Source: Nostoc linckia FACHB-104 | GTDB taxonomy: Bacteria > Cyanobacteriota > Cyanobacteriia > Cyanobacteriales > Nostocaceae | Assembly (NCBI RefSeq): GCF_014696615.1 | Contig: NZ_JACJQJ010000008.1 | Coordinates: 1-64,000, forward strand | Direction of reading: 5' to 3' | Length of the DNA stretch: 64,000 nt | In this document: in pieces, positions 8,138 through 45,163 of the stretch | Layout: every line of letters begins with the position of its first letter | How positions within the stretch are numbered: position 1 is the first letter of the stretch | Notes under the pieces: model-generated | What the model was told of the DNA's origin: nothing | What the model saw: the letters and a program-made list of their open reading frames with translations, nothing else | Database searches by the model: none | Position numbers and translations under genes: made by a program

Positions 8138-8464
8138 TTATAGCGATATCACGGTTTCAGCAGATTGTCCCTGCGCGTGACGGGAGCGAAGATGTAAAGT
8201 GATTTCCGTATCAAGTCGCTTGAGGAAAATAAGGAGTTTTCCCTCGCTAAACCGTTGAAACTCTCCTTTCATTAAATGAGATACTTCTGGCTGGGGAATA
8301 CCAAGAAGTTCGCTAATTTCGCGCTGTTTGAGATTGCGTTGTTTTAGAAGGCGGAGTACCTGAATGCCTATTTTACCCCGCGTAAAAAGTTCATCTGCAT
8401 TCTCTAAACCGAGATCAGCAAATACATTACCACTACTTTCTTCAAAAACGGGTTCCTGAGTCAT
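8138..8464 (-). CDS. HigA-type antitoxin, XRE family
   Basis: This 108-residue protein has a central helix-turn-helix at about residues 45-68 (LKQREISELLGIPQPEVSHLM), typical of XRE/Cro-family antitoxins that pair with Gp49-like toxins. The N-terminal FADLGLENADEL segment is usual in this subgroup. Its start lies 2 bp after the stop of the toxin gene, giving the toxin-first order of HigBA-like modules. By analogy it neutralises the toxin and represses the shared promoter. Confidence 0.88.
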   Translation of the reverse strand: MTQEPVFEESSGNVFADLGLENADELFTRGKIGIQVLRLLKQRNLKQREISELLGIPQPEVSHLMKGEFQRFSEGKLLIFLKRLDTEITLHLRSRHAQGQSAETVISL

Positions 8465-8466
8465 TG

Positions 8467-8835
8467 TTATTTCTCCCTTGCTACCGCATCTTTATAGCGT
8501 TGTTTAATCAAGTCAACATCAGCCTGTGGGGTTTTAATTCCCTGCTTTGATTTCTTTTGAAAAGCGTGCAGGACATAAATTCTTTCTGCAATCTTAACTG
8601 CATAGACTGCTCTGTAAGTATCAGTATCGTAACGTTTGACAATTTCATATACCCCACTTCCAACTCCTTTAAAAGGCTTGGCATCCATTGGTGTTTCCCC
8701 TGCTTGCACCAATTGCAGTGCATAGCCTACTGATGCACGGACTTCTTCGGGAAATGAACGGATATTTTTGAGAGAGTCTCCCATCCAAACCAGAGGTCGT
8801 AAAGGAATTTCTATAATATCCTCATCTTCGTCCAT
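8467..8835 (-). CDS. HigB-like toxin, phage-derived Gp49-like family
   Basis: This 122-residue protein belongs to the RelE/HigB superfamily (Gp49-like). The segment GVGSGVYEIVKRYDTDTYRAVY is followed by VKIAERIYVLHAFQKKSKQGIKTP, the standard core in which basic residues contact ribosome-bound mRNA. By family it would be an mRNA interferase acting at the ribosome. It is the first gene of a two-gene operon with the antitoxin 2 bp downstream. The 264 bp upstream (8836-9099) hold no gene and should carry the autoregulated promoter. Confidence 0.87.
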   Translation of the reverse strand: MDEDEDIIEIPLRPLVWMGDSLKNIRSFPEEVRASVGYALQLVQAGETPMDAKPFKGVGSGVYEIVKRYDTDTYRAVYAVKIAERIYVLHAFQKKSKQGIKTPQADVDLIKQRYKDAVAREK

Positions 8836-10592: not shown

Positions 10593-11120
10593 ATGGCAGA
10601 CCTTTACGTTTCTTGGTCAGATTATCACCAAAAAATCGAACTACTGGCTGCTAAGATTTATCAATCGGGTTGGCAATTCAACCAGATTGTTTGTCTTGCC
10701 AGAGGCGGACTGCGAGTTGGAGATATTCTTTCCCGTATATATGACCAACCGTTGGCAATTTTAGCAACATCATCATACAGTGGCCCAGGCAAGCAAGAAA
10801 GAGGTGCATTAAACTTTTCTCGCCATATCACTATGACTACGGAAACTTTAGGTTCGCGGATTTTGTTGGTCGATGATTTGGTAGATTCTGGGGTTACACT
10901 TGAGCAAACTATCCCTTGGCTACAGCAATATAGTGAAAGTGCGATCGCAGAAATTCGCACGGCTGTAATTTGGTATAAATCTTGTTCGGTTATACAGCCT
11001 GATTACTATGTTGATTATCTATCAGACAATCCCTGGATTCACCAACCTTTTGAACCCTATGAATATATGAATCCTGCGGATTTAGCAGCGAGAATGAATC
11101 AAATAAAGGCTGAAGTATAA
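10593..11120 (+). CDS. Phosphoribosyltransferase-domain protein
   Basis: This 175-residue type I phosphoribosyltransferase fold has the PRPP-binding loop RILLVDDLVDSGVTL at about residues 89-103. An N-terminal CLARGGLRVGD segment (34-44) matches the pyrophosphate loop of xanthine/hypoxanthine-type enzymes. It resembles stand-alone Gpt-like proteins (COG2236), so purine salvage is plausible, but the base specificity is not evident. It is a single gene on the plus strand; its promoter region is shared with the divergent symporter. Confidence 0.85.
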   Translation: MADLYVSWSDYHQKIELLAAKIYQSGWQFNQIVCLARGGLRVGDILSRIYDQPLAILATSSYSGPGKQERGALNFSRHITMTTETLGSRILLVDDLVDSGVTLEQTIPWLQQYSESAIAEIRTAVIWYKSCSVIQPDYYVDYLSDNPWIHQPFEPYEYMNPADLAARMNQIKAEV

Positions 11121-11338
11121 AGGTTAAAACTATACCAATTCGTCATTACGACAGAAGGTTACAGCACAATACGCTTGGTTTAAAATCATTAGAGATTGAT
11201 TTTTCAGTTGTGGAATAAGCCAGTAGAATTGGGGGATTCTCCCCCAAACCCCCGATTGGGTGACGGTTGCGTCCCCCAAACCCCCTCCAAAATTATTGTG
11301 CTGTTTTTTGTTGAGTAACTATAGGGGTTTGCAGTATG

Positions 11339-12142
11339 CTAAAAATCCTCTGGATTTTCTCCTAATTCTCGCAAGCGTGCAGCTAAACGTTCTGCTCGTT
11401 GGCGTTCTGCTTCCGCCCTTTGACGTTCTGCGTCTGCGCGTCTAGATTCGGCTTCCGCGCGTTGGCGTTCTGCGTCTGCGCGTTGGAATGCTACTTCTTC
11501 TGGTAAGAAAACTAAATTTGACTCGCGGTCATAAAATCGTAACCAAGGCGCAGTTTCTCTGTCTATTGTTCCTTCCCAGGTTCCTAACCAAAATCCTAAG
11601 GTTTCGCACCATAACCAGCCACTTTCATTAGCAACTAATGGCTGATAGCGAAAATTAGCATCTAAACGCCATCCTTGCAAGGAGTTAGAGTCAAAGGGAT
11701 CAAAAACAAAATAATCTCTAGTTCTAAAAACTCCTTCATAAAGATGCTTTTTATCGCCTAAATCTACATTTTTGGTTGAGGGTGACATTAATTCTACAAT
11801 CACATCTGGGTAGCGTCCGTTTTCATCCCAGACAACCCAACCTTGGCGAGAACTAGTCTCTTCGACGTTGAGAACCACAAAAAAATCCGGCCCTTTGAAA
11901 TCCCGATTTCGCGCCTGTATCCGGCTATAGTAAACAAACATATTACCGCCAACAAAATAATCATTGCGGTCTGACCATGCTTGTTGCAATGACCGGATTA
12001 AAACGTTCATTCCAATACGGTGGCGGTTACTTTCTAAAGGTTCTCCGTCATCAAATATTAAATCTGTTGGTGGTGGCGTAGGTTCCCAGTCTGAGTCAGG
12101 GGGCGCTGGGATACTCTGGCTTTCAGTAATGTTAGTTGACAT
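11339..12142 (-). CDS. Uma2 family (DUF820) nuclease-fold protein with coiled-coil tail
   Basis: This 267-residue protein belongs to the Uma2/DUF820 family, abundant in cyanobacteria and built on the PD-(D/E)XK fold. Core residues are GPDFF (Asp86), YPDVIVELMSPSTK (Asp113, Glu117) and GDKKHLYE (Lys131/132). The tail from about residue 215 is a charged coiled coil made of repeated RADAERQRAEAE-like units, followed by RLAARLRELGENPEDF. Family members are common and often single genes. Their biological role is unclear, although an endonuclease function has been proposed from the fold. Plain gap sequence flanks it on the downstream side (11121-11338). Confidence 0.85.
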   Translation of the reverse strand: MSTNITESQSIPAPPDSDWEPTPPPTDLIFDDGEPLESNRHRIGMNVLIRSLQQAWSDRNDYFVGGNMFVYYSRIQARNRDFKGPDFFVVLNVEETSSRQGWVVWDENGRYPDVIVELMSPSTKNVDLGDKKHLYEGVFRTRDYFVFDPFDSNSLQGWRLDANFRYQPLVANESGWLWCETLGFWLGTWEGTIDRETAPWLRFYDRESNLVFLPEEVAFQRADAERQRAEAESRRADAERQRAEAERQRAERLAARLRELGENPEDF

Positions 12143-12157
12143 GGCATAACGTGATAT

Positions 12158-12310
12158 TTGTCATTTGTAATTGGTTATTTGTAATTGGTTATTTGTCATT
12201 GGGTAATTGGTAATTGGTAATTGGTAATCTCTCCCCTTGTCCCCAATCCCCAATCCCCAATCCCCAATCCCCAATCCCCAATCCCCAGTCCCCAGTCCCC
12301 AGTCCCCATT
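12158..12310. repeat. Two adjacent heptanucleotide STRR blocks
   Basis: Bases 12158-12228 are degenerate TAATTGG / TTATTTG repeats. Bases 12241-12310 are ten heptamers: six CCCCAAT, three CCCCAGT and one CCCCATT. The array ends 2 bp before the stop codon of the AEC transporter. Confidence 0.9.
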
Positions 12311-12312
12311 CC

Positions 12313-13230
12313 TCAAAACAGCCATAACCAAACTGGTAATGTAATTAATAATACTATTGCTCCTACGGCTAAGGCTGTCACAGCTAAATCGCGATCGAGA
12401 TTGAAGGTTTCCGCAATTACTAAAGTAGCAAACGCTGGTGGCATAGCCATTTGTAGGACAATTACTTTAGCGGCTGAACCAGTAACCCCAAAAAACGGTA
12501 AGGTGCAACCTAGAACAAGGGGAACTATCAACATTTTAATTCCCAAGCTCATTCCTACCTGTGGGATATTGCTCCAGGACTTTAATTTTGATAGTCGCAT
12601 CCCAATTAATACTAGGGATAATGCCAAAGATGTCCAAGCCAATTTATCTAAACAAAATACCACCACCAAGGGGATTTTTACCTGTCGCAACAGTAAACCA
12701 AAGCCGAAACTCCATAAAGCCGGATTAATCATGATTGCTTTGGCTATCTCTCTATAACTATGCTTACCATTGCCGAAACTTGCTCCTAGTACTACTCCTA
12801 AGCCATAAGAACCAAAGAGTGTGCCTAGTAAATCGTAGAACAATGCCCAAGCGAAGTATTTTTCTCCTACCATTGCTAGGGTAATGGGAAAACCTAGGTA
12901 ACCTGTATTCCCTACCATTGCTGCTAATAGGAAACTTCCTTGAGTTGGTGGCTGCGGCATGGTATTTGTGAGATAGGCTTGTCCTTTAATTGCTAGCCAA
13001 GCCAAAAAAGCCCCTAGGAAAATGGCAAGGTATGCGATCGCAGGTGCAATCCAAATCTGCCCTGATAAGTCTGTTTTGTATAGAAAAAATACAATGCTTA
13101 TAGGTACTCCTACCCAAAAAAGGAAGTGAGCTACACCTGAAGGAACTGTGCTAGGTAATTTACGTCCGAGGACGAATCCAATCAGGACTAGCCCCACTAA
13201 CTTGACATATAGTACTAAAAGATTTATCAA
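12313..13230 (-). CDS. AEC-family (auxin efflux carrier-like) transporter
   Basis: This 305-residue integral membrane protein has about ten hydrophobic helices in the two five-helix halves typical of the AEC family. The segments [16 protein letters not shown] and [20 protein letters not shown] match the conserved crossover helices of each half. Bacterial members export or take up small organic acids such as malate or malonate; the substrate here is unknown. It is a single gene on the minus strand. Its 3' end abuts a heptanucleotide repeat array. Confidence 0.87.
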
Positions 13231-15814: not shown

Positions 15815-15996
15815 GTGTTGTTAAAAGATTTTCTTGCATAGCCTTGCTGCTTAGATTTTACCGGAATTGAATGTTAAGCAAATGAAGTGGCGGCTACTGT
15901 AAGCGAATTTAATGATTAACATACTTGGGTTGCTAATTACGGAAAATCTTACTACTACTCTCCGTAAGCTTGATTGCATGTATTATCCCAATCCAT

Positions 15997-16227
15997 AATT
16001 GCTGTTTTTGATACTACAATTGCTATTTCGGAGACTACAATTGCTGTTTTTGATACTACAATTGCTATTTCGGAGACTACAATTGCTGTTTTTGATACTA
16101 CAATTGCTATTTCGGAGACTACAATTGCTATTTTCGATACTACAATTGCTGCTTTTGAGACTACAATTGCTATTTTCGATACTACAATTGCTACTTCTGA
16201 GACTACAATTGCTATTTTTGAGACTAC
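15997..16227 (+). repeat. 21-bp minisatellite, 11 units
   Basis: Eleven contiguous 21-bp units have the consensus AATTGCT-N9-A-ACTAC. The first six form three exact copies of a 42-bp dimer (15997-16038, 16039-16080, 16081-16122); later units vary mainly at two or three inner positions. The unit is a multiple of 3, so frames stay open on both strands and encode heptapeptide repeats (TTIAxFD/TTIAISE on plus; NCSLxNS on minus). The plus frame (TTG at 15974 to 16396) overlaps the start of the next gene by ATGA, but it has no clear ribosome site. Confidence 0.95.
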
Positions 16228-16392
16228 AATTGCTAACTACGTTTATCTGGAAACCATTGATAGACAAAGACAGACGAGTAAAAACACAGATATACTCCCA
16301 ATTATGAGAGTAATTAAATCAACAAAACTACTCATCTCAGTTATCAAGACACTCCACTATCTTGAAAGAGAAGGAATTGAGGAGTATCTCCC

Positions 16393-16821
16393 ATGACTGT
16401 GACAACTCGCGGTTCTGGTGCTGTGGAAAAAGCCCAACGTCGTCTTGCTTTGCTGAAATCTATTAATGAGAATCTAGATTTAGGACATGGATTAACAATC
16501 GAAGCCTATAGTCGCTTAATTGAGAATACCCGTGCTAGTGTGGAAGCACATAATACGCTTTTATCTAATCTGGAAGAATCGCGTAAGACAATAACCCAGA
16601 TGGACAAAGAACTCGCAGAAATGTCTCAAAGGATGCTGGGTGGAATTGCAGCAGTCTATGGTAAAAACAGCATGGAATATTCCAAAGCTGGCGGTTCTAA
16701 TCGCAAGCGTGGTAGTCAAAAATTAACTTCGCCAGTTCCTCCAGTGGTAGAGGTTCCCGCTACTCAACCCGTCCCGACTGCAATTTTACCAGAGTCAACT
16801 AACGGGCGAGTTAAGAATTAG
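16393..16821 (+). CDS. Conserved cyanobacterial hypothetical protein, helical
   Basis: This 142-residue, probably soluble protein is mostly helical in residues 5-95 (VEKAQRRLALLKSINENLDL, then a Leu/Glu-rich stretch). The tail (105-142) is disordered, with Lys/Arg and Pro/Val. It resembles short hypothetical proteins of filamentous cyanobacteria, but I cannot assign a function. The ribosome site GAGGAG sits 6-12 bases before the ATG. The start overlaps, as ATGA, the end of an open frame that runs through the upstream minisatellite, so translation coupling is conceivable. Confidence 0.7.
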   Translation: MTVTTRGSGAVEKAQRRLALLKSINENLDLGHGLTIEAYSRLIENTRASVEAHNTLLSNLEESRKTITQMDKELAEMSQRMLGGIAAVYGKNSMEYSKAGGSNRKRGSQKLTSPVPPVVEVPATQPVPTAILPESTNGRVKN

Positions 16822-39009: not shown

Positions 39010-40188
39010 ATGCCATTGCATGGTAAAAACAAAACTGCAAAGAGTGTAATTTTATTAACCATCATCTTTCTCGCTATTGAATTCTTAGACGAGGTGATTG
39101 ATGGTTTGTGTGGTGCGGCTTGGCCGTTAATTCGCCATGACCTAAATCTTGACTACGTGCAATTAGGAATGTTACTGACAATACCCAATACTATCAGTAG
39201 CTTAATTGAGCCGATTGTAGGAATCTGGGGGGATATTGGGAAGCGGCGACAATTAATATTGGGTGGAGGAGTAAGCTTTGCGATCGCACTCCTCCTTTTA
39301 AGCCAGAGCTATAATTTTTTATTATTATTAGCAGCCTTTGTGCTGTTTTATCCCGCATCTGGTTGCTTTGTTAGTCTTTCTCAAGCCACCCTGATGGATA
39401 TTCAACCGACGCGCCACGAACAAAATATGGCACGTTGGGCGTTAGCTGGTTCTGTGGGAAATGTAATTGGCCCCTTAATTTTAGCTGGCGCGGTGGCATT
39501 AAATCAAAGTTGGCGAAGTGCGTTTTTGGCATTAGCGCTGTTGACGCTGTTACTTGTGGGAATGTTATGGCAATTTCCCATAAAAACTGCAACTTCCCAC
39601 ATAGATGAACCACTGCATAGTTTCAAGGATGGAATCACCAATGCGTTAACAGCATTAAAACGGCGTAAAGTTCTGCTGTGGTTAACTTTATTGCAATTTT
39701 CAGATTTAATGCTAGATATTTTGCGTAGCTTTTTAGCACTGTACTTTGTTGATATAGTCGGTGCAAATAATACGCAAGCAAGTTTTGCTGTCACTGTTTG
39801 GTTAGGCTTTGGCTTGCTGGGAGATTTTTTACTCATCCCCTTACTAGAAAGAGTTCGGGGATTAAATTATTTAAAACTCAGCGCCACAATTGTTTTGTGT
39901 CTTTACCCAGCTTTTTTGCTGGTACCAAATACAAATATCAAATTAGTAATTCTCGGTTTGTTGGGTTTCTGTAATGCTGGTTGGTACTCAATTCTGCAAG
40001 GGCAATTATACACAGCTATGCCAGGGCAAAGTGGTACAGTAATGACGCTCAATAATTTGTTTGGTTTAGTTGGTGGTTTAATACCGTTGGTGTTGGGTTT
40101 AGTTGCTCAATATTATGGTTTACAAACTACTATGTGGTTGTTAATTGCTGCACCTATAACCTTACTCATCGCACTATTTGCCGTTTAA
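39010..40188 (+). CDS. MFS transporter
   Basis: This 392-residue protein has 12 predicted membrane helices. The motif-A-like loop after helix II reads GIWGDIGKRRQLILGGG, and acidic residues occur in helix I (FLDEVIDGL), unusual for the superfamily and suggestive of a proton- or cation-coupling site. The substrate is unknown; the length and pattern fit small-molecule efflux pumps. GGGAG lies 8-12 bases before the ATG. It is convergent with coaR (38 bp between stops), so a role in metal export is a tempting but unsupported idea. Confidence 0.85.
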   Translation: MPLHGKNKTAKSVILLTIIFLAIEFLDEVIDGLCGAAWPLIRHDLNLDYVQLGMLLTIPNTISSLIEPIVGIWGDIGKRRQLILGGGVSFAIALLLLSQSYNFLLLLAAFVLFYPASGCFVSLSQATLMDIQPTRHEQNMARWALAGSVGNVIGPLILAGAVALNQSWRSAFLALALLTLLLVGMLWQFPIKTATSHIDEPLHSFKDGITNALTALKRRKVLLWLTLLQFSDLMLDILRSFLALYFVDIVGANNTQASFAVTVWLGFGLLGDFLLIPLLERVRGLNYLKLSATIVLCLYPAFLLVPNTNIKLVILGLLGFCNAGWYSILQGQLYTAMPGQSGTVMTLNNLFGLVGGLIPLVLGLVAQYYGLQTTMWLLIAAPITLLIALFAV

Positions 40189-40225
40189 TTTTGAATATCA
40201 AGATGCAACGCCAGCTTTTCTGTTC

Positions 40226-41335
40226 TTAGTGACTAAGATAACAATGACAATCTGGCTTCTCAATTAGCGATTCTACCAGAGCATTAAGGGCTGTAGCCGC
40301 TAATAAACCTCCGCCTACAGTCCCTTCTACTGTAATAAAAGGTATCGATTGTTGCAGCAAAAGCCGCTTGGCTGCGGGAGCATGACTAAAGCCAATAGGC
40401 ATTCCAATCACTAATGCAGGCTGAATTTGTTGCTTATTTATAGCTTCGCAAACTTCCACCAGCACTGAAGGCGCATAACCAATTACTAAAATACAACCTG
40501 TGGTGAGTTGCTGTAATTTCTCTCGCCATTGCTGCTGTTCCCAAAAAGCCAGTTCTGCTTCTGTGGCAGTGGTAATGTGGGGATTATTAATCAATGTTTC
40601 TACTGGACAACCTAAATGGACTAATCTCGTATTATCAAGAGCAGCCGCTACTGTGGGGATATCGACAACAATTTGACAATTTGCAGAGAGAGCTTGACGA
40701 CTAGCTGCGATCGCATCTCGACTGAGCTTGACAAATGATACCAAACTCACATCACCACAAGCTAATACTAGTTGGGAAATTAGGTGTTGTTCAATCTCGG
40801 AACGTTTAGATAAGTCAGGTAACAACCGCTGCAAAGATTCCGCAAAAGCTTCTGGGTGAGTATGAATTTCCGCATCTAAGCCACTCCACAGTTGTTCTAA
40901 TCCGCCTAATCCCGTTTGGGTTTCGACTTCCAGTAACTTCAGCTGTGCTAAAACTTCCGCTTGGGTATTTTGACAATGCTGATCCCGCCCTAATAATCCT
41001 TCCAATGCGGATGCTGTTTGTCGCAGTTGGGAAATTTGCTGCATAACTGCGCGATACTGCTTTTGCAATTGCGCCATCAGGGTTTTTGTGGTGTCTGCTT
41101 CTGGTTCTACTTCCAGAATTTGCTGGATGTGGTTGAGTTGAAACCCTTGCTGCTTCAAAGCCACAATCCGTTGCAGCCTAATCACATCCTTCTCAGTATA
41201 AAGGCGATAATTGCTAGGCGATCGCACTGGTTGCGGTAGTAATCCTAATTGATGGTAATGGCGCACCATGCGCGGAGTAATCCCCCCACCCACAGCATCA
41301 GTAAGTTCTTTAATGGTTAAGCAACCAGTATTCAT
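40226..41335 (-). CDS. coaR: CoaR cobalt-responsive MerR regulator
   Basis: This 369-residue regulator has an N-terminal MerR winged helix (residues 7-75, ITPRMVRHYHQLGLLPQPVR) and a dimerisation coiled coil at about 80-135. Its large C-terminal domain is homologous to precorrin-8X methylmutase (CobH/CbiC): VIGYAPSVLVEVCEAIN, ALVIGMPIGFSHA and VEGTVGGGLLAATALNAL. The extreme C-terminus carries Cys363-His364-Cys365, the motif reported as needed for cobalt sensing by Synechocystis CoaR. It should activate coaT when cobalt is high. Here it is the last gene of a putative operon: it starts 3 bp after the TOPRIM-like gene. coaT is 1.9 kb away and divergent. Confidence 0.93.
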   Translation of the reverse strand: MNTGCLTIKELTDAVGGGITPRMVRHYHQLGLLPQPVRSPSNYRLYTEKDVIRLQRIVALKQQGFQLNHIQQILEVEPEADTTKTLMAQLQKQYRAVMQQISQLRQTASALEGLLGRDQHCQNTQAEVLAQLKLLEVETQTGLGGLEQLWSGLDAEIHTHPEAFAESLQRLLPDLSKRSEIEQHLISQLVLACGDVSLVSFVKLSRDAIAASRQALSANCQIVVDIPTVAAALDNTRLVHLGCPVETLINNPHITTATEAELAFWEQQQWREKLQQLTTGCILVIGYAPSVLVEVCEAINKQQIQPALVIGMPIGFSHAPAAKRLLLQQSIPFITVEGTVGGGLLAATALNALVESLIEKPDCHCYLSH

Positions 41336-41338
41336 GAT

Positions 41339-41881
41339 TTATTCCAACAACGGCAAAATTCTTTTTAGTTCTCCACAAGCCGCCTGAAGCGATGGCGGTG
41401 CATTTGCATCCAAGCCTTGGTAACACTGATTTACTAAGCTTTCAACATACGGCTTACAAGCTGACTCATTTTTGGTGAATTTTGAATATTCTGTTTCTTC
41501 GTCAACAGCTTCTCCTTGTAAATAATGTATCCAAGTTTCAATATTTCTTTTAGGTATAAAGATTGCTATAGCTTCATGAGGCTGACGAATTTGCTGGGAA
41601 TCTGCTATTAATGCATCATCTAATTGCTTTAGCCTTTTCTCTATCATTTCTTTATCAGCATCAATCAATACTACTAATATGACTGAAAGATAGTTCTTGC
41701 TTCGGTAGGCTTTCACCTCTGCGGCATAACTCTCTCTGACAAACTGTTCTCCTGCACCTTTGAGACAAAATTTAGTTCTGATGTTGCCAGTAAAACCGCG
41801 TTTTTTTAGAAAATGGCGAGCAAAAACTTCTTGTTGCCTATCTTCACATAGAATAACAATCTGTACTCTACGCTGATTCAT
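41339..41881 (-). CDS. TOPRIM-like protein partnered with ABC-class ATPase
   Basis: This 180-residue protein shows the layout of a small TOPRIM/DUF4276-like nuclease domain: QIVILCEDRQQEVFARHFL with acidic Glu13-Asp14, VVLIDADKE with Asp74-x-Asp76, and a later PKRNIETWIHYLQ (Arg112, Glu115). The start at 41881 lies inside the end of the ATPase gene (14-base overlap); an alternative ATG at 41899 would add six residues. Its stop lies 3 bp before coaR. By family logic (OLD, Gabija, PARIS-type ATPase-TOPRIM modules) it could be the effector nuclease of the adjacent ATPase. Exact family and activity are not established. Confidence 0.7.
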   Translation of the reverse strand: MNQRRVQIVILCEDRQQEVFARHFLKKRGFTGNIRTKFCLKGAGEQFVRESYAAEVKAYRSKNYLSVILVVLIDADKEMIEKRLKQLDDALIADSQQIRQPHEAIAIFIPKRNIETWIHYLQGEAVDEETEYSKFTKNESACKPYVESLVNQCYQGLDANAPPSLQAACGELKRILPLLE

Positions 41882-42986
41882 ACAGCCATCCCCGTGCAAT
41901 TAGTTCAGAAATGGGTAATCCAGTATTATCTGCCATTTCATTACTAATTTTTTTCACTCGTACTGGTGCATTACTTTGACGCTCAAACCAATAACCTATC
42001 GGTGATGCTAAAAGATAATCAATTAGTTGTGGATGATGAGAAATCAACAAAGACTGTAATTTTTGCTCGCTACAAAACTCATAAAGTTGAGTTAACCAAG
42101 GTTGGATTTCTGAAAGTGCTAAAAAATTTTCTGGTTCATCTATACACAGTGTATATTCTTCTGATTGAGTGCAATATAAAAGTGTGTAAAGAGCTATTAA
42201 TGCTTTTTGTCCATCAGATAGTTCTGTTAAGTAGTAATCAATTATTCTCGTTTGGTCTTCCTCATCTTTAAATCGTAATTTTAAACTTACATCTTTTTGG
42301 CTAAATTGTTCAAATTTTATGCTATTAAAGCCATTTATCACACTTTTCAAGACATGAATCAGTTCAGCAACTTTACCCTGATCCTGTGAAATGTAGCGAT
42401 ACCATGAGATAAAATTCTCCATTTTTTCTGTTAATTGTGTTTCTTCTTTTTCACTATTTCCAGAAATTAAACTAGGAATAATTTGGACAATAATAAATTT
42501 TCCTATCCTATTTTTGAACCAAGTCAACTTTTTGTTATCACTTCTGGGTACGAGCAGAGGGAGAATTGACTGCGACCAATCAAAAGGATATTTTGCACCA
42601 GCTAAATAATTATCATCAAATATTTGGACTTCACCCATATCAAACTTTAATAGAGGTAGGTTATCAAACCACAAACGTTCGTACCAAACATAGCTTTTAC
42701 CCTGATTATGTTCAATAGCAAGTTCATATTTATAAATACCACCATTACCACTAATATCAATATCAAAACGTTGCAGAGACATACTTTGCCAACGTGTACA
42801 ATCAGAAGGCTTAAAAACACCTTCAACTTTGCTATCACCACTCACAAAAGTTTGAATTTTACGCAAGACATCAAAAACTGTTGATTTACCTGTTCCATTA
42901 CCACCAAGAAACAGATTAATTGAGTCAAAATTAAGCTCAAAATTTACTAAGCCTCGAAAGTTATCAATATAGATTCGCTTTAACAT
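41868..42986 (-). CDS. AAA/ABC-class ATPase (AAA_21-like, OLD-type)
   Basis: This 372-residue ATPase has a Walker A GGNGTGKST (residues 28-36), an ABC signature-like LSDGQ (256-260), a Walker B with catalytic acid LCIDEPE (280-286) and the switch segment SHHPQLIDYL (316-325). The opening LKRIYIDNFRGLVNFEL is typical of OLD/RecF-type and AAA_21 ATPases. The segment between Walker A and signature, about 220 residues, is short and contains no long coiled coil. It is the first gene of the operon ATPase, TOPRIM-like, coaR. Such ATPase plus small nuclease pairs are frequent in anti-phage modules, so defence is an inference. It is not known as part of cobalt resistance. Confidence 0.85.
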   Translation of the reverse strand: MLKRIYIDNFRGLVNFELNFDSINLFLGGNGTGKSTVFDVLRKIQTFVSGDSKVEGVFKPSDCTRWQSMSLQRFDIDISGNGGIYKYELAIEHNQGKSYVWYERLWFDNLPLLKFDMGEVQIFDDNYLAGAKYPFDWSQSILPLLVPRSDNKKLTWFKNRIGKFIIVQIIPSLISGNSEKEETQLTEKMENFISWYRYISQDQGKVAELIHVLKSVINGFNSIKFEQFSQKDVSLKLRFKDEEDQTRIIDYYLTELSDGQKALIALYTLLYCTQSEEYTLCIDEPENFLALSEIQPWLTQLYEFCSEQKLQSLLISHHPQLIDYLLASPIGYWFERQSNAPVRVKKISNEMADNTGLPISELIARGWLYESA

Positions 42987-43179
42987 AAATCGTTTTCATC
43001 CCAATGCAACAACAACAATAAACTTTCTGGGCGACTGCAAGTCATGCGTCACTTGTTATAAGTTAGGGAATGCTTACACAGACAAAACCTATGTGTAATT
43101 TGTTTGTACAAATCCCGTAATTTCTCATCACTAGGGCTAGACGCAAAATATGAGACTCGCCATAGTCAACTCCCACACC

Positions 43180-43212
43180 GTTGACATTAACATTAATGTC
43201 AACGTTTAGTGT
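43180..43212 (+). promoter_or_regulatory. coaT promoter with CoaR-type operator
   Basis: A near-perfect inverted repeat GTTGACATTAAC (43180-43191) and ATTAATGTCAAC (43192-43203), 11 of 12 pairing, overlaps a -35 TTGACA at 43181-43186. A -10-like TAGTGT (43207-43212) follows after a 20-base spacer, the stretched spacing that MerR-family activators correct. It lies 28 bases before the coaT start, with coaR in the same locus. Binding is inferred. Confidence 0.8.
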
Positions 43213-43240
43213 GAGATAGTCCGCTTAGTTTCTCAATTTC

Positions 43241-45163
43241 ATGCTCTACCCACAGCATTTAACCAAATTCACCAAAGAACATGGAGATACCTTAGCAGCC
43301 TTAGTTTGTGGAGTGCTGCTATTTCTGGGTTGGTTCACCTTGCATCTTGGCTGGCTGGGATGGGCAATGTTGTTATTAACCGCAGCTTACGTGATTGGTG
43401 GTTATGAAAGCGCCCGTGAGGGGTTAACTACCCTCGTCAAGGAAAAACAACTGGATGTAGATTTGCTGATGATTGTGGCAGCGCTTGGTGCTGCTAGCTT
43501 GGGCTTATGGCGCAGGGAATACCATTTAATTATTGATGGGGCTATTTTAATTTTGATTTTTGCGATTAGTGGCGCATTAGAAGGCTACGCAATGCGGCGA
43601 ACTGAACGCAGTATTCGTAGTTTGATGAGTCTGACTCCAGATACAGCTAGGATTTCACGTCAAGGAAAAGAAGAGTTAGTTCCCATTCACCAGTTACAGG
43701 TCGGGGATGAAATTATTGTCAAGCCAGGAGAGTTAATTCCCACTGATGCTTTAATTGTCTCTGGTTACAGTACCCTCAATCAGGCTGCGATTACAGGCGA
43801 GTCTTTACCTGTGGAGAAGACAGTCAACGATGAAGTTTTTGCGGGGACAATTAACGGCTATGGGGCGCTAAAGCTAAAGTTGCATAAGCCAGCCACCAGC
43901 AGTTTGATTCAACGGGTGATTCGGTTAGTCGAACAAGCACAAACAGAAGCGCCACCTTCCCAAGAATTTATTGAGCGATTTGAACGGAAATATGCGCTAA
44001 TAATTGTCACCTTGGGCGTATTACTAGCAATTCTGCCGCCATTTATTTGGGGTTGGGATTGGGAAACTACAATTTACCGGGCGCTGACATTTTTGGTGGT
44101 AGCCTCTCCCTGCGCTTTGATGGCTGCTATTATGCCTACACTGCTGTCAGCGATTGCCAATGGTGCCAGACAGGGGATTTTGTTTAAAAATGGTGCCCAG
44201 TTGGAAAAGATTGGTCAAGTTAGAGCGATCGCATTCGATAAAACTGGTACTTTGACAACAGGGGAGTTGCAGGTCTGTGAAGTAATAGCTTATGGTAAAT
44301 ACTCGCAAGCTGATGTACTAACAGCCGCCGCATCTCTAGAATCATACTCAGAACATCCCATTGGTAAAGCTATTGTGCAGGCAGCCGCTAACATAGATTG
44401 GGTGGGCGCGCTGGAAGTGCAAGCTATCCCTGGAAAGGGAATTAGCGGTATTATTCAAGACCAGCAAGTAATGGTGGGAAATGCTGCCTTTATTGGGGAG
44501 TATGTACCAGAATTACCCCAGGATTTGCAGAATTTAACTCAATTTTGGGAACAAGAAGGCAAAACAGTTGTTTGGGTAGCCCAAACCAGAAGAGAAGATG
44601 GTTATGAGATTGTGGGTGCCCTTGCTATTGCAGATATGGTACGTGCTGAAGCAGCCGAAACGATTAGGCGCTTAAGAAATTTGGGCGTTGCTGAGATTGT
44701 GATGATTACCGGCGATAATCAGCGAACTGCCCATAGTGTCGCGCAAGCCGTGGGTATTGATCGCGTGTATGCTGAACTGTTACCAGAAGACAAGCTATCT
44801 GTGATTAGTGATTTACAGCAAAAATATCAAACAGTGGCAATGGTAGGCGATGGGATCAATGATGCACCAGCCCTCGCCCAGGCTTCTGTGGGTATTGCTA
44901 TGGGTGTGGCTGGTAGTGATGTGGCGCTAGAAACAGCCGATGTTGTCCTCATGGCCGATAAACTAGAAAAAATTGCTGTAGCCATGCATTTAGGTAGGCG
45001 ATCGCAAAGTATAGTTAAACAAAATATCGTTGTCGCCTTAGGTTTTATTCTGTTGCTACTCGTCGGTAACTTTCTCGGCAATATTAACTTACCCATCGGC
45101 GTAATTGGGCATGAAGGCTCTACGGTATTAGTAACTTTAAGCGGTTTAAGACTTTTGAAGTAA
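43241..45163 (+). CDS. coaT: CoaT cobalt-exporting P1B-type ATPase
   Basis: This 640-residue P1B-4-class ATPase has no N-terminal metal-binding domain, as in Synechocystis CoaT. The metal-site helix has Ser289-Pro290-Cys291 (SPC in place of CPC), and the last helices contain HEGST (624-628), both hallmarks of the cobalt-exporting subgroup. Other motifs are the actuator TGES, phosphorylation DKTGT (Asp333), SEHPIGKAI, MITGDNQRTA and VGDGINDAPAL. It should expel Co2+ (perhaps also other divalent metals) from the cytosol. It is monocistronic, driven by the operator-promoter just upstream and ended by the hairpin at 45256. Confidence 0.93.
   Translation: MLYPQHLTKFTKEHGDTLAALVCGVLLFLGWFTLHLGWLGWAMLLLTAAYVIGGYESAREGLTTLVKEKQLDVDLLMIVAALGAASLGLWRREYHLIIDGAILILIFAISGALEGYAMRRTERSIRSLMSLTPDTARISRQGKEELVPIHQLQVGDEIIVKPGELIPTDALIVSGYSTLNQAAITGESLPVEKTVNDEVFAGTINGYGALKLKLHKPATSSLIQRVIRLVEQAQTEAPPSQEFIERFERKYALIIVTLGVLLAILPPFIWGWDWETTIYRALTFLVVASPCALMAAIMPTLLSAIANGARQGILFKNGAQLEKIGQVRAIAFDKTGTLTTGELQVCEVIAYGKYSQADVLTAAASLESYSEHPIGKAIVQAAANIDWVGALEVQAIPGKGISGIIQDQQVMVGNAAFIGEYVPELPQDLQNLTQFWEQEGKTVVWVAQTRREDGYEIVGALAIADMVRAEAAETIRRLRNLGVAEIVMITGDNQRTAHSVAQAVGIDRVYAELLPEDKLSVISDLQQKYQTVAMVGDGINDAPALAQASVGIAMGVAGSDVALETADVVLMADKLEKIAVAMHLGRRSQSIVKQNIVVALGFILLLLVGNFLGNINLPIGVIGHEGSTVLVTLSGLRLLK

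Follow-up and report, generated by a model that had tools for sequence, protein, structure and literature searches.

Separate ATPase and TOPRIM genes lying side by side characterize OLD class 4, PARIS, with its components AriA and AriB (PMC10568477, PMC12796447; here, as for each paper cited, the statement refers to the available sections of the text). OLD-ABC/TOPRIM dyads, credited to Aravind and colleagues, share this general architecture, in which an OLD-ABC ATPase is linked to a TOPRIM nuclease (PMC12839542). HEC-01, a candidate defence pair of PADLOC-DB, likewise consists of two genes, specifying an ATPase and a small second protein. Its name stands for Hma-embedded candidate, and a literature search for HEC-01 with PADLOC returned no paper, subscription papers (for the most part) and preprints lying outside the coverage of that search. 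The coaT/coaR locus of Synechocystis, in turn, comprises an exporter gene with coaR upstream and a promoter of sub-optimal spacing, and its sensor combines MerR and precorrin-isomerase-like domains with a CHC motif (PMC7689651, PMC4284471). Here, we describe a locus of Nostoc linckia FACHB-104 at which both kinds of element adjoin, as an OLD-type ABC ATPase and a TOPRIM-like protein are encoded immediately ahead of coaR and opposite a divergent coaT within a stretch of 64,000 nucleotides (the window; positions 1 to 64,000 of contig NZ_JACJQJ010000008.1).

It is probable, in our judgment, that this pair represents an OLD/TOPRIM conflict module which, in a group of Nostocaceae-level cyanobacteria, has its residence between the CoaR operator region and coaR and is transcribed in the order ATPase, TOPRIM, coaR. 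Such a module would persist in a metal-sensor operon and not in a defence island. Its position next to coaR distinguishes the pair from HEC-01, while the described dyads are partners of BREX-type systems, and none is mentioned with coaR in the available sections of the source (PMC12839542). Those of the Synechocystis papers likewise describe no ATPase/TOPRIM pair between the promoter and coaR (PMC7689651, PMC4284471). Literature searches that paired coaR with coaT or cobalt with phage defense, or that addressed hotspots of Nostoc, named no such locus, the coverage again leaving out preprints and most subscription papers.

Family placement of the two proteins

An earlier note, made from the letters of the window, had reported three tightly packed minus-strand genes, and the open reading frames (ORFs), their strand and their spacing were verified (Table 1). 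The ATPase and TOPRIM-like genes overlap by 14 bases (positions 41868-41881), and the ATG of coaR at 41335 follows 3 bases past the TAA of the TOPRIM-like gene, for which the ORF list offers an upstream TTG at 41899 as an alternative start. The divergent coaT gene and the 22-base palindrome between coaT and the ATPase gene were absent from that note.

Profile searches against Pfam and defence databases, as the note had proposed, were performed for both proteins. The ATPase matches AAA_21 of Pfam (1.7e-15) and has HEC-01A as its best PADLOC match (3.9e-22, 76.8 bits), and an alignment of 61 relatives shows no variation in the core residues of its Walker A, signature, Walker B and H-loop motifs. 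Its AlphaFold2 model (mean pLDDT 91.9) retrieved Rad50 (4e-14), OLD (6p74; 4.3e-13) and PtuA in Foldseek, OLD 6p74 also being its match by sequence in the PDB (3.8e-11). The four motifs, together with the SMC/Rad50/OLD-like fold of the model, identify the protein as an OLD-type ABC ATPase.

For the TOPRIM-like protein, the PADLOC search returned a weak match to HEC-01B (18.6 bits, 3.1e-4, with no curated cut-off shown for the model). Among 62 aligned relatives, D74 and D76 are invariant and E13 is present in at least 90%; in the AlphaFold2 model (mean pLDDT 91.2), E13 sits after strand 6-12 and D74/D76 after strand 66-72. Weak profile links of these relatives (E <= 0.1) lead to DUF3226 (18/62), DUF4276 (7/62) and RloB (2/62), and 19 PADLOC families match any of the 62 proteins.

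Within PADLOC, the models nearest to the pair are those of HEC-01. One HEC-01A model matches all 61 ATPases, and the TOPRIM-like proteins match HEC-01B more often than any other family (31/62 at E <= 0.01). The AriA model PDLC02980 also matches 61/61 ATPases, but it scores below HEC-01A for the window protein. Membership in PARIS, a system marked by activation through anti-restriction proteins and by cleavage of tRNA, was rejected, since no AriB model matches any of the 62 TOPRIM-like proteins at E <= 0.01. Gabija was rejected likewise: the ATPase and TOPRIM parts are separate here and fused in GajA, and the neighbours within positions 39010-45163 are an MFS gene, coaR and coaT, with no GajB helicase. 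A third candidate, AbiL, fails in that AbiLii matches 1 of the 62 relatives and RloB the two mentioned above, and the window protein matches neither. Thus, where the earlier note had compared the pair with the anti-phage modules OLD, Gabija and PARIS, the OLD-type ABC ATPase with its TOPRIM-like partner stood, whereas the likeness to Gabija and PARIS proved generic. Judged by its profile matches, the pair is best filed as an OLD-ABC/TOPRIM two-gene module which appears distantly related to HEC-01 and is not PARIS; its split-OLD architecture is like that of PARIS and HEC-01 in kind.

The product of coaR displays the MerR N-terminus, CbiC-like domain and C-terminal Cys-His-Cys of the CoaR family. 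Its C-terminus reads ...DCHCYLSH and, therefore, retains the motif that is tied to cobalt binding (PMC7689651).

TABLE 1 Features of the coaT-coaR locus, in window positions
Feature	Position	Strand	Remarks
OLD-type ABC ATPase	41868..42986	-	372 aa; Walker A, LSDGQ signature, Walker B DEPE, SHH H-loop
TOPRIM-like protein	41339..41881	-	180 aa; own ATG 41881, stop 41339; E13, D74, D76
coaR, MerR-CbiC cobalt sensor	40226..41335	-	Pfam CbiC 3.1e-49, MerR_1 1e-13; C-terminal CHC motif kept
coaT-type heavy-metal P-type ATPase, divergent	43241..45163	+	Pfam E1-E2_ATPase 4.1e-46; NCBIfam TIGR01525 3.5e-175
CoaR-operator-like palindrome TTGACATTAATGTTAATGTCAA	43181..43202	.	22 bases; between ATPase and coaT
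Leader of putative ATPase-TOPRIM-coaR transcript	42987..43180	-	Between palindrome and ATPase start

Occupancy, exchange and loss at the coaT-coaR interval

From the 200 relatives that a genome scan with the TOPRIM profile yielded, the 80 best were retained; these derive from cyanobacteria, deltaproteobacteria, Chloroflexi, planctomycetes and other bins. In 78 of the 80, from several phyla, an ATPase gene lies immediately upstream of the TOPRIM gene, the other two representing a contig end and a decayed copy. The pairing is near-obligate, and the module crosses phyla. A second ATPase/small-protein pair is present in the same stretch as the pair at four loci (L107, L109, L118 and L120); at the first of these (10744-12544), the second ATPase and its 249-aa partner, DUF4276-like by eye, lie directly downstream of the pair. 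Within 98 genomes, those of the host and 97 relatives, the ATPase was matched in 16 at E <= 1e-20 (in 8 of these at E <= 1e-80) and coaR in 57 at E <= 1e-20, a few of the latter matches being partial.

To place the window in context, 72 coaR loci were examined, 46 of which, at Nostocaceae level, have coaT divergent upstream in the fetched stretch. Both genes of the pair are in place at 13 of the 46, scars or displaced copies occur at 11, and 22 show no trace. The TOPRIM query was the source of seven of the 46, which are hence biased; in the remaining 39, the corresponding numbers are 7 (all with open frames), 10 and 22. Both frames are open at 11 of the 13 in-place loci, and 10 of these 11 have the 3-base gap between TOPRIM stop and coaR start, a 4-base overlap replacing it in G041. 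The survey with and without coaR that the earlier note had called for is completed by the 80 relatives, in 67 of which coaR is missing from the fetched stretch, although some of these stretches are short contigs. A chance insertion in this strain only, which the note had named as a possibility, is ruled out by the census.

Scars were called by a tail criterion, according to which the 120 bases before coaR had to score above all 200 shuffles against the tail of the TOPRIM gene; judging from the shuffles, fewer than one false call should arise over the 72 loci. By this measure, a TOPRIM 3' tail abuts coaR at seven coaT loci (G044, G367, G021 and G340; more weakly G053, G035 and G412). At G400, the initial ATPase codons (MLKRIY) form the start of the open coaR frame, and at G034 a decayed TOPRIM gene is all that is left. 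G024 and Cylindrospermum NIES-4074 harbor an open pair followed by a 5' fragment of coaR, the full coaR lying 10.6 and 1.8 kb further, respectively. At scarred loci coaR remains full-length. Three genomes with a broken coaR (G012, G008 and G049) were excluded from the census, so that this retention applies to loci whose coaR is readable. In Nostoc sp. WHI (L108, 10576-11377), where the stretch contains no coaT, the match to the coaR following the pair is confined to residues 1-117 and 228-368, and this locus appears to be decaying.

The interval also accommodates other genes. A membrane protein of 514-537 aa occupies it at six loci (G052, G016, G046, G337, G343 and G251), one representative of which gave no Pfam match; further occupants are a Gp49/HTH_37 pair (G021), a PemK/MazF-like protein (G018), an HTH_3 protein (G053), an RNase_T exonuclease (G165) and a 387-aa protein without assignment (G390). 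Three congeners of the window (G002, G005 and G007) have just 86 bases between coaT and coaR. Two small minus-strand ORFs elsewhere in the window (8138-8835) resemble, by eye, the Gp49/HTH_37 pair of G021. In G010, which has no coaT in the fetched stretch, a caspase-like protein of 1519 residues (L175:1959-6515; PADLOC caspase 1.5e-16, HEAT-ARM 9.2e-17) shares the strand of coaR and terminates immediately ahead of it, and G054 (L178) has a similar ORF.

This variety of occupants, the 86-base intervals and a co-occurrence of pair and coaR at chance level (see below) would be expected if the pair were a passenger at a permissive variable site between conserved genes, where modules are swapped via flanking homology and a shared transcript provides expression without regulatory meaning. 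We regard this explanation as a serious one, if clearly less probable than a resident module. It fits less well with the pair being the commonest occupant identified, present, displaced or scarred at 24/46 loci (17/39 without those from the TOPRIM query), or with its orientation, as it points toward coaR at 13/13 in-place loci and ends within a few bases of coaR wherever the frame is open. We read the interval as a small exchange site with the pair as its commonest identified resident. Linkage of the pair to coaR is strong within the family of the host, despite chance-level co-occurrence among genomes.

Exchange of the pair is most apparent between the window and Calothrix membranacea FACHB-236 (L086), assigned to the same genus. 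Per 100 bases, DNA identity is 93-100% in the flanks and 63-85% in the ATPase-TOPRIM cassette, whose edges are sharp, the left one just past the palindrome and the right one in the final TOPRIM codons. Synonymous divergence (dS) is 1.36 for the ATPase and 0.80 for TOPRIM, against 0.09 for coaR and 0.12 for coaT. Fast evolution of the pair might have explained why its proteins are 74-76% identical between these congeners, but this was rejected, the dS values of the two genes being 9- to 15-fold that of coaR. In L084/L087, the ATPase has a dS of 0.89 and the flanks 0.29 and 0.30. The order is reversed in L081/L083 (ATPase 0.25, flanks 0.52 and 0.47), as expected if the cassette had been transferred more recently than its flanks. 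Discordance is not universal, the remaining comparisons being milder or saturated: L084/L099 give 0.50 (ATPase) and 0.79 (TOPRIM) versus 0.38 and 0.37 in the flanks, L091/L094 show 0.24 and 0.13 for the pair versus 0.37 and 0.36 for the flanks, and between the window and L084, L087 and L009, dS is near saturation (about 0.9-1.4) for all four genes. The discordant comparisons indicate that the cassette has been replaced between conserved flanks. It is AT-richer than they are, with a GC content at third codon positions of 0.22 and 0.28 versus 0.36 for coaR and 0.40 for coaT, values which other long ORFs in the window also span. In leaders of the Nostoc clade between palindrome and ATPase (for example, L084 before 8896), the stretch AACGCAGAGGGACGCTGAGGGAAGCGC... 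resembles a dispersed repeat of cyanobacteria and might promote recombination.

Both genes have a ratio of nonsynonymous to synonymous divergence of 0.08-0.29 in the pairs compared and are, therefore, under purifying selection. A quick coaR tree requires eight changes of the state "pair in place", at least six of which are forced by well-supported branches, and a single clean vertical inheritance was not supported; on the ATPase tree (six changes), the in-place state may have had a single origin. The pair has been swapped and lost repeatedly at this locus, with coaR kept.

Operator, promoters and expression of coaR

The palindrome pattern occurs once in the 9.39-Mb host genome and is kept at 19 or more of its 22 bases at 46/46 coaT-coaR loci. 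Toward coaT, the window palindrome gives TTGACA-N20-TAGTGT, in keeping with the sub-optimal, non-standard promoter spacing of MerR-family targets, CoaR included (PMC7689651), and a coaT -10 of the type TAG..T is found at 44 of the 46 loci. Toward the pair, TTGACA-N20 is followed by TATAAT at 9/13 in-place loci (six of six bases in eight, five of six in one), a hexamer that at 5 or 6 of 6 is present at 7/11 open-frame loci, 4/11 scarred or displaced loci and 3/22 other loci, these counts coming from related lineages that are not independent. Such an arrangement suggests, from the promoter letters, that CoaR may control the module promoter in the Nostoc clade only.

That the pair forms a single transcript with coaR, as put forward in the earlier note, found indirect support in gene packing and in the deletions that leave coaR behind the leader or the ATPase start. 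The minus strand yielded no terminator-like site in positions 40100-43400 and, within the TOPRIM gene, no promoter-like site, promoter-like sites overall being near chance (12 versus a shuffle mean of 8.7). Natural deletions place coaR directly behind the leader of the pair, and the G400 fusion, in which coaR stands under the ATPase start codon, supports co-transcription from upstream of the ATPase. On this best evidence, coaR is apparently expressed from upstream of the ATPase gene.

Proposed working and alternative roles

We propose that an oligomer of the ATPase would sense an infection-linked trigger, whereupon an ATP-dependent change would free or activate the metal-dependent nuclease of the TOPRIM partner; the latter would cut host or invader nucleic acid and stop infection, and coaR would be made by read-through from the ATPase-TOPRIM message. 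An anti-phage action of the pair is suggested by analogy of architecture, and its kinship with defence modules, patchiness, exchange and decay also point toward defence.

Several observations weigh against a resident defence module. The window TOPRIM-like protein reaches no Pfam cut-off, and because its model has no Foldseek match in the PDB at E <= 0.001, the TOPRIM assignment rests on motif placement and the weak profile links of its relatives. No -10 lies at N20 from the TTGACA of the palindrome on the pair side of the window (hexamer GTGGGA, 0/6), which consequently has no CoaR-regulated MerR-type promoter with an N20 spacer over the operator toward the pair. The congeners likewise have no N20 -10 on the coaR side (GTGGGA or GTAGGA), so that the suggestion of CoaR control of the pair holds for the Nostoc clade but does not extend to the window. 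Nostoc strains UCD121 (L083) and CHAB5824 (L087), which account for 2 of the 13 in-place loci, have a stop in the TOPRIM gene while the ATPase and coaR are open; at such loci, the effector may go before the sensor. Among 388 genomes of the order, the TOPRIM profile was found in 59 (E <= 1e-8) and coaR in 139 (E <= 1e-25), and both were found in 23 against 21.1 expected by chance, an overlap counted by hand from the two match lists. Dependence of the pair on coaR, or of either on the other, was not seen at the genome level, a result which lends no support to a dependence of the module on cobalt. Searches of viral contigs, plasmids and phages for carriage revealed no relative. Relatives outside the coaR locus have mostly housekeeping-like neighbours, not defence islands, as judged by eye from N-termini, and Cran1, an archaeal OLD nuclease, has a cell-cycle role and no apparent defence role in the available sections of its description (PMC12796447).

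The last two observations, along with the 42-59% identity of TOPRIM-like proteins from other phyla to that of the window, would suit a cellular, non-defence role of the pair in genome maintenance or RNA processing, comparable to that of Cran1. Such a role is in our view unlikely, given that the TOPRIM-like protein is patchy (59 of the 388 genomes) and that the cassette has been lost, has decayed and has been replaced repeatedly.

A role in cobalt or B12 homeostasis itself might be read from the position of the pair in the coaT/coaR locus and from the acceptance of Co2+ in vitro by the TOPRIM nucleases AriB (PMC12409363), Cran1 (PMC12796447) and Ts OLD (PMC7049728). We consider it highly improbable, as the fetched stretch, in some cases a short contig, lacks coaR in 67/80 relatives, co-occurrence with coaR is at chance level, and coaR is full-length at scarred loci.

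Returning to the conflict module, a more speculative extension, which we regard as doubtful, is that in the Nostoc clade it acts as a cobalt-gated immune operon. Operator-bound CoaR would control both the exporter and the module via two back-to-back long-spacer promoters, the metal status would set the amount of nuclease and also, because such TOPRIM nucleases can run on Co2+, its activity, and coaR, as the third gene, would close the loop. If CoaR does drive the module in this clade, metal homeostasis would be linked directly to a conflict module; if it does not, the coaT-coaR interval would be a small exchange site which may help to find further cyanobacterial modules. The loci range in nature from open through stopped, swapped and scarred to empty, and this series renders the coupling of expression testable.

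Outside the coaT-coaR locus, an ORF at window positions 15974-16396 is built of a repeated unit (..TTIAVFDTTIAISE..) and likely represents a tandem repeat.

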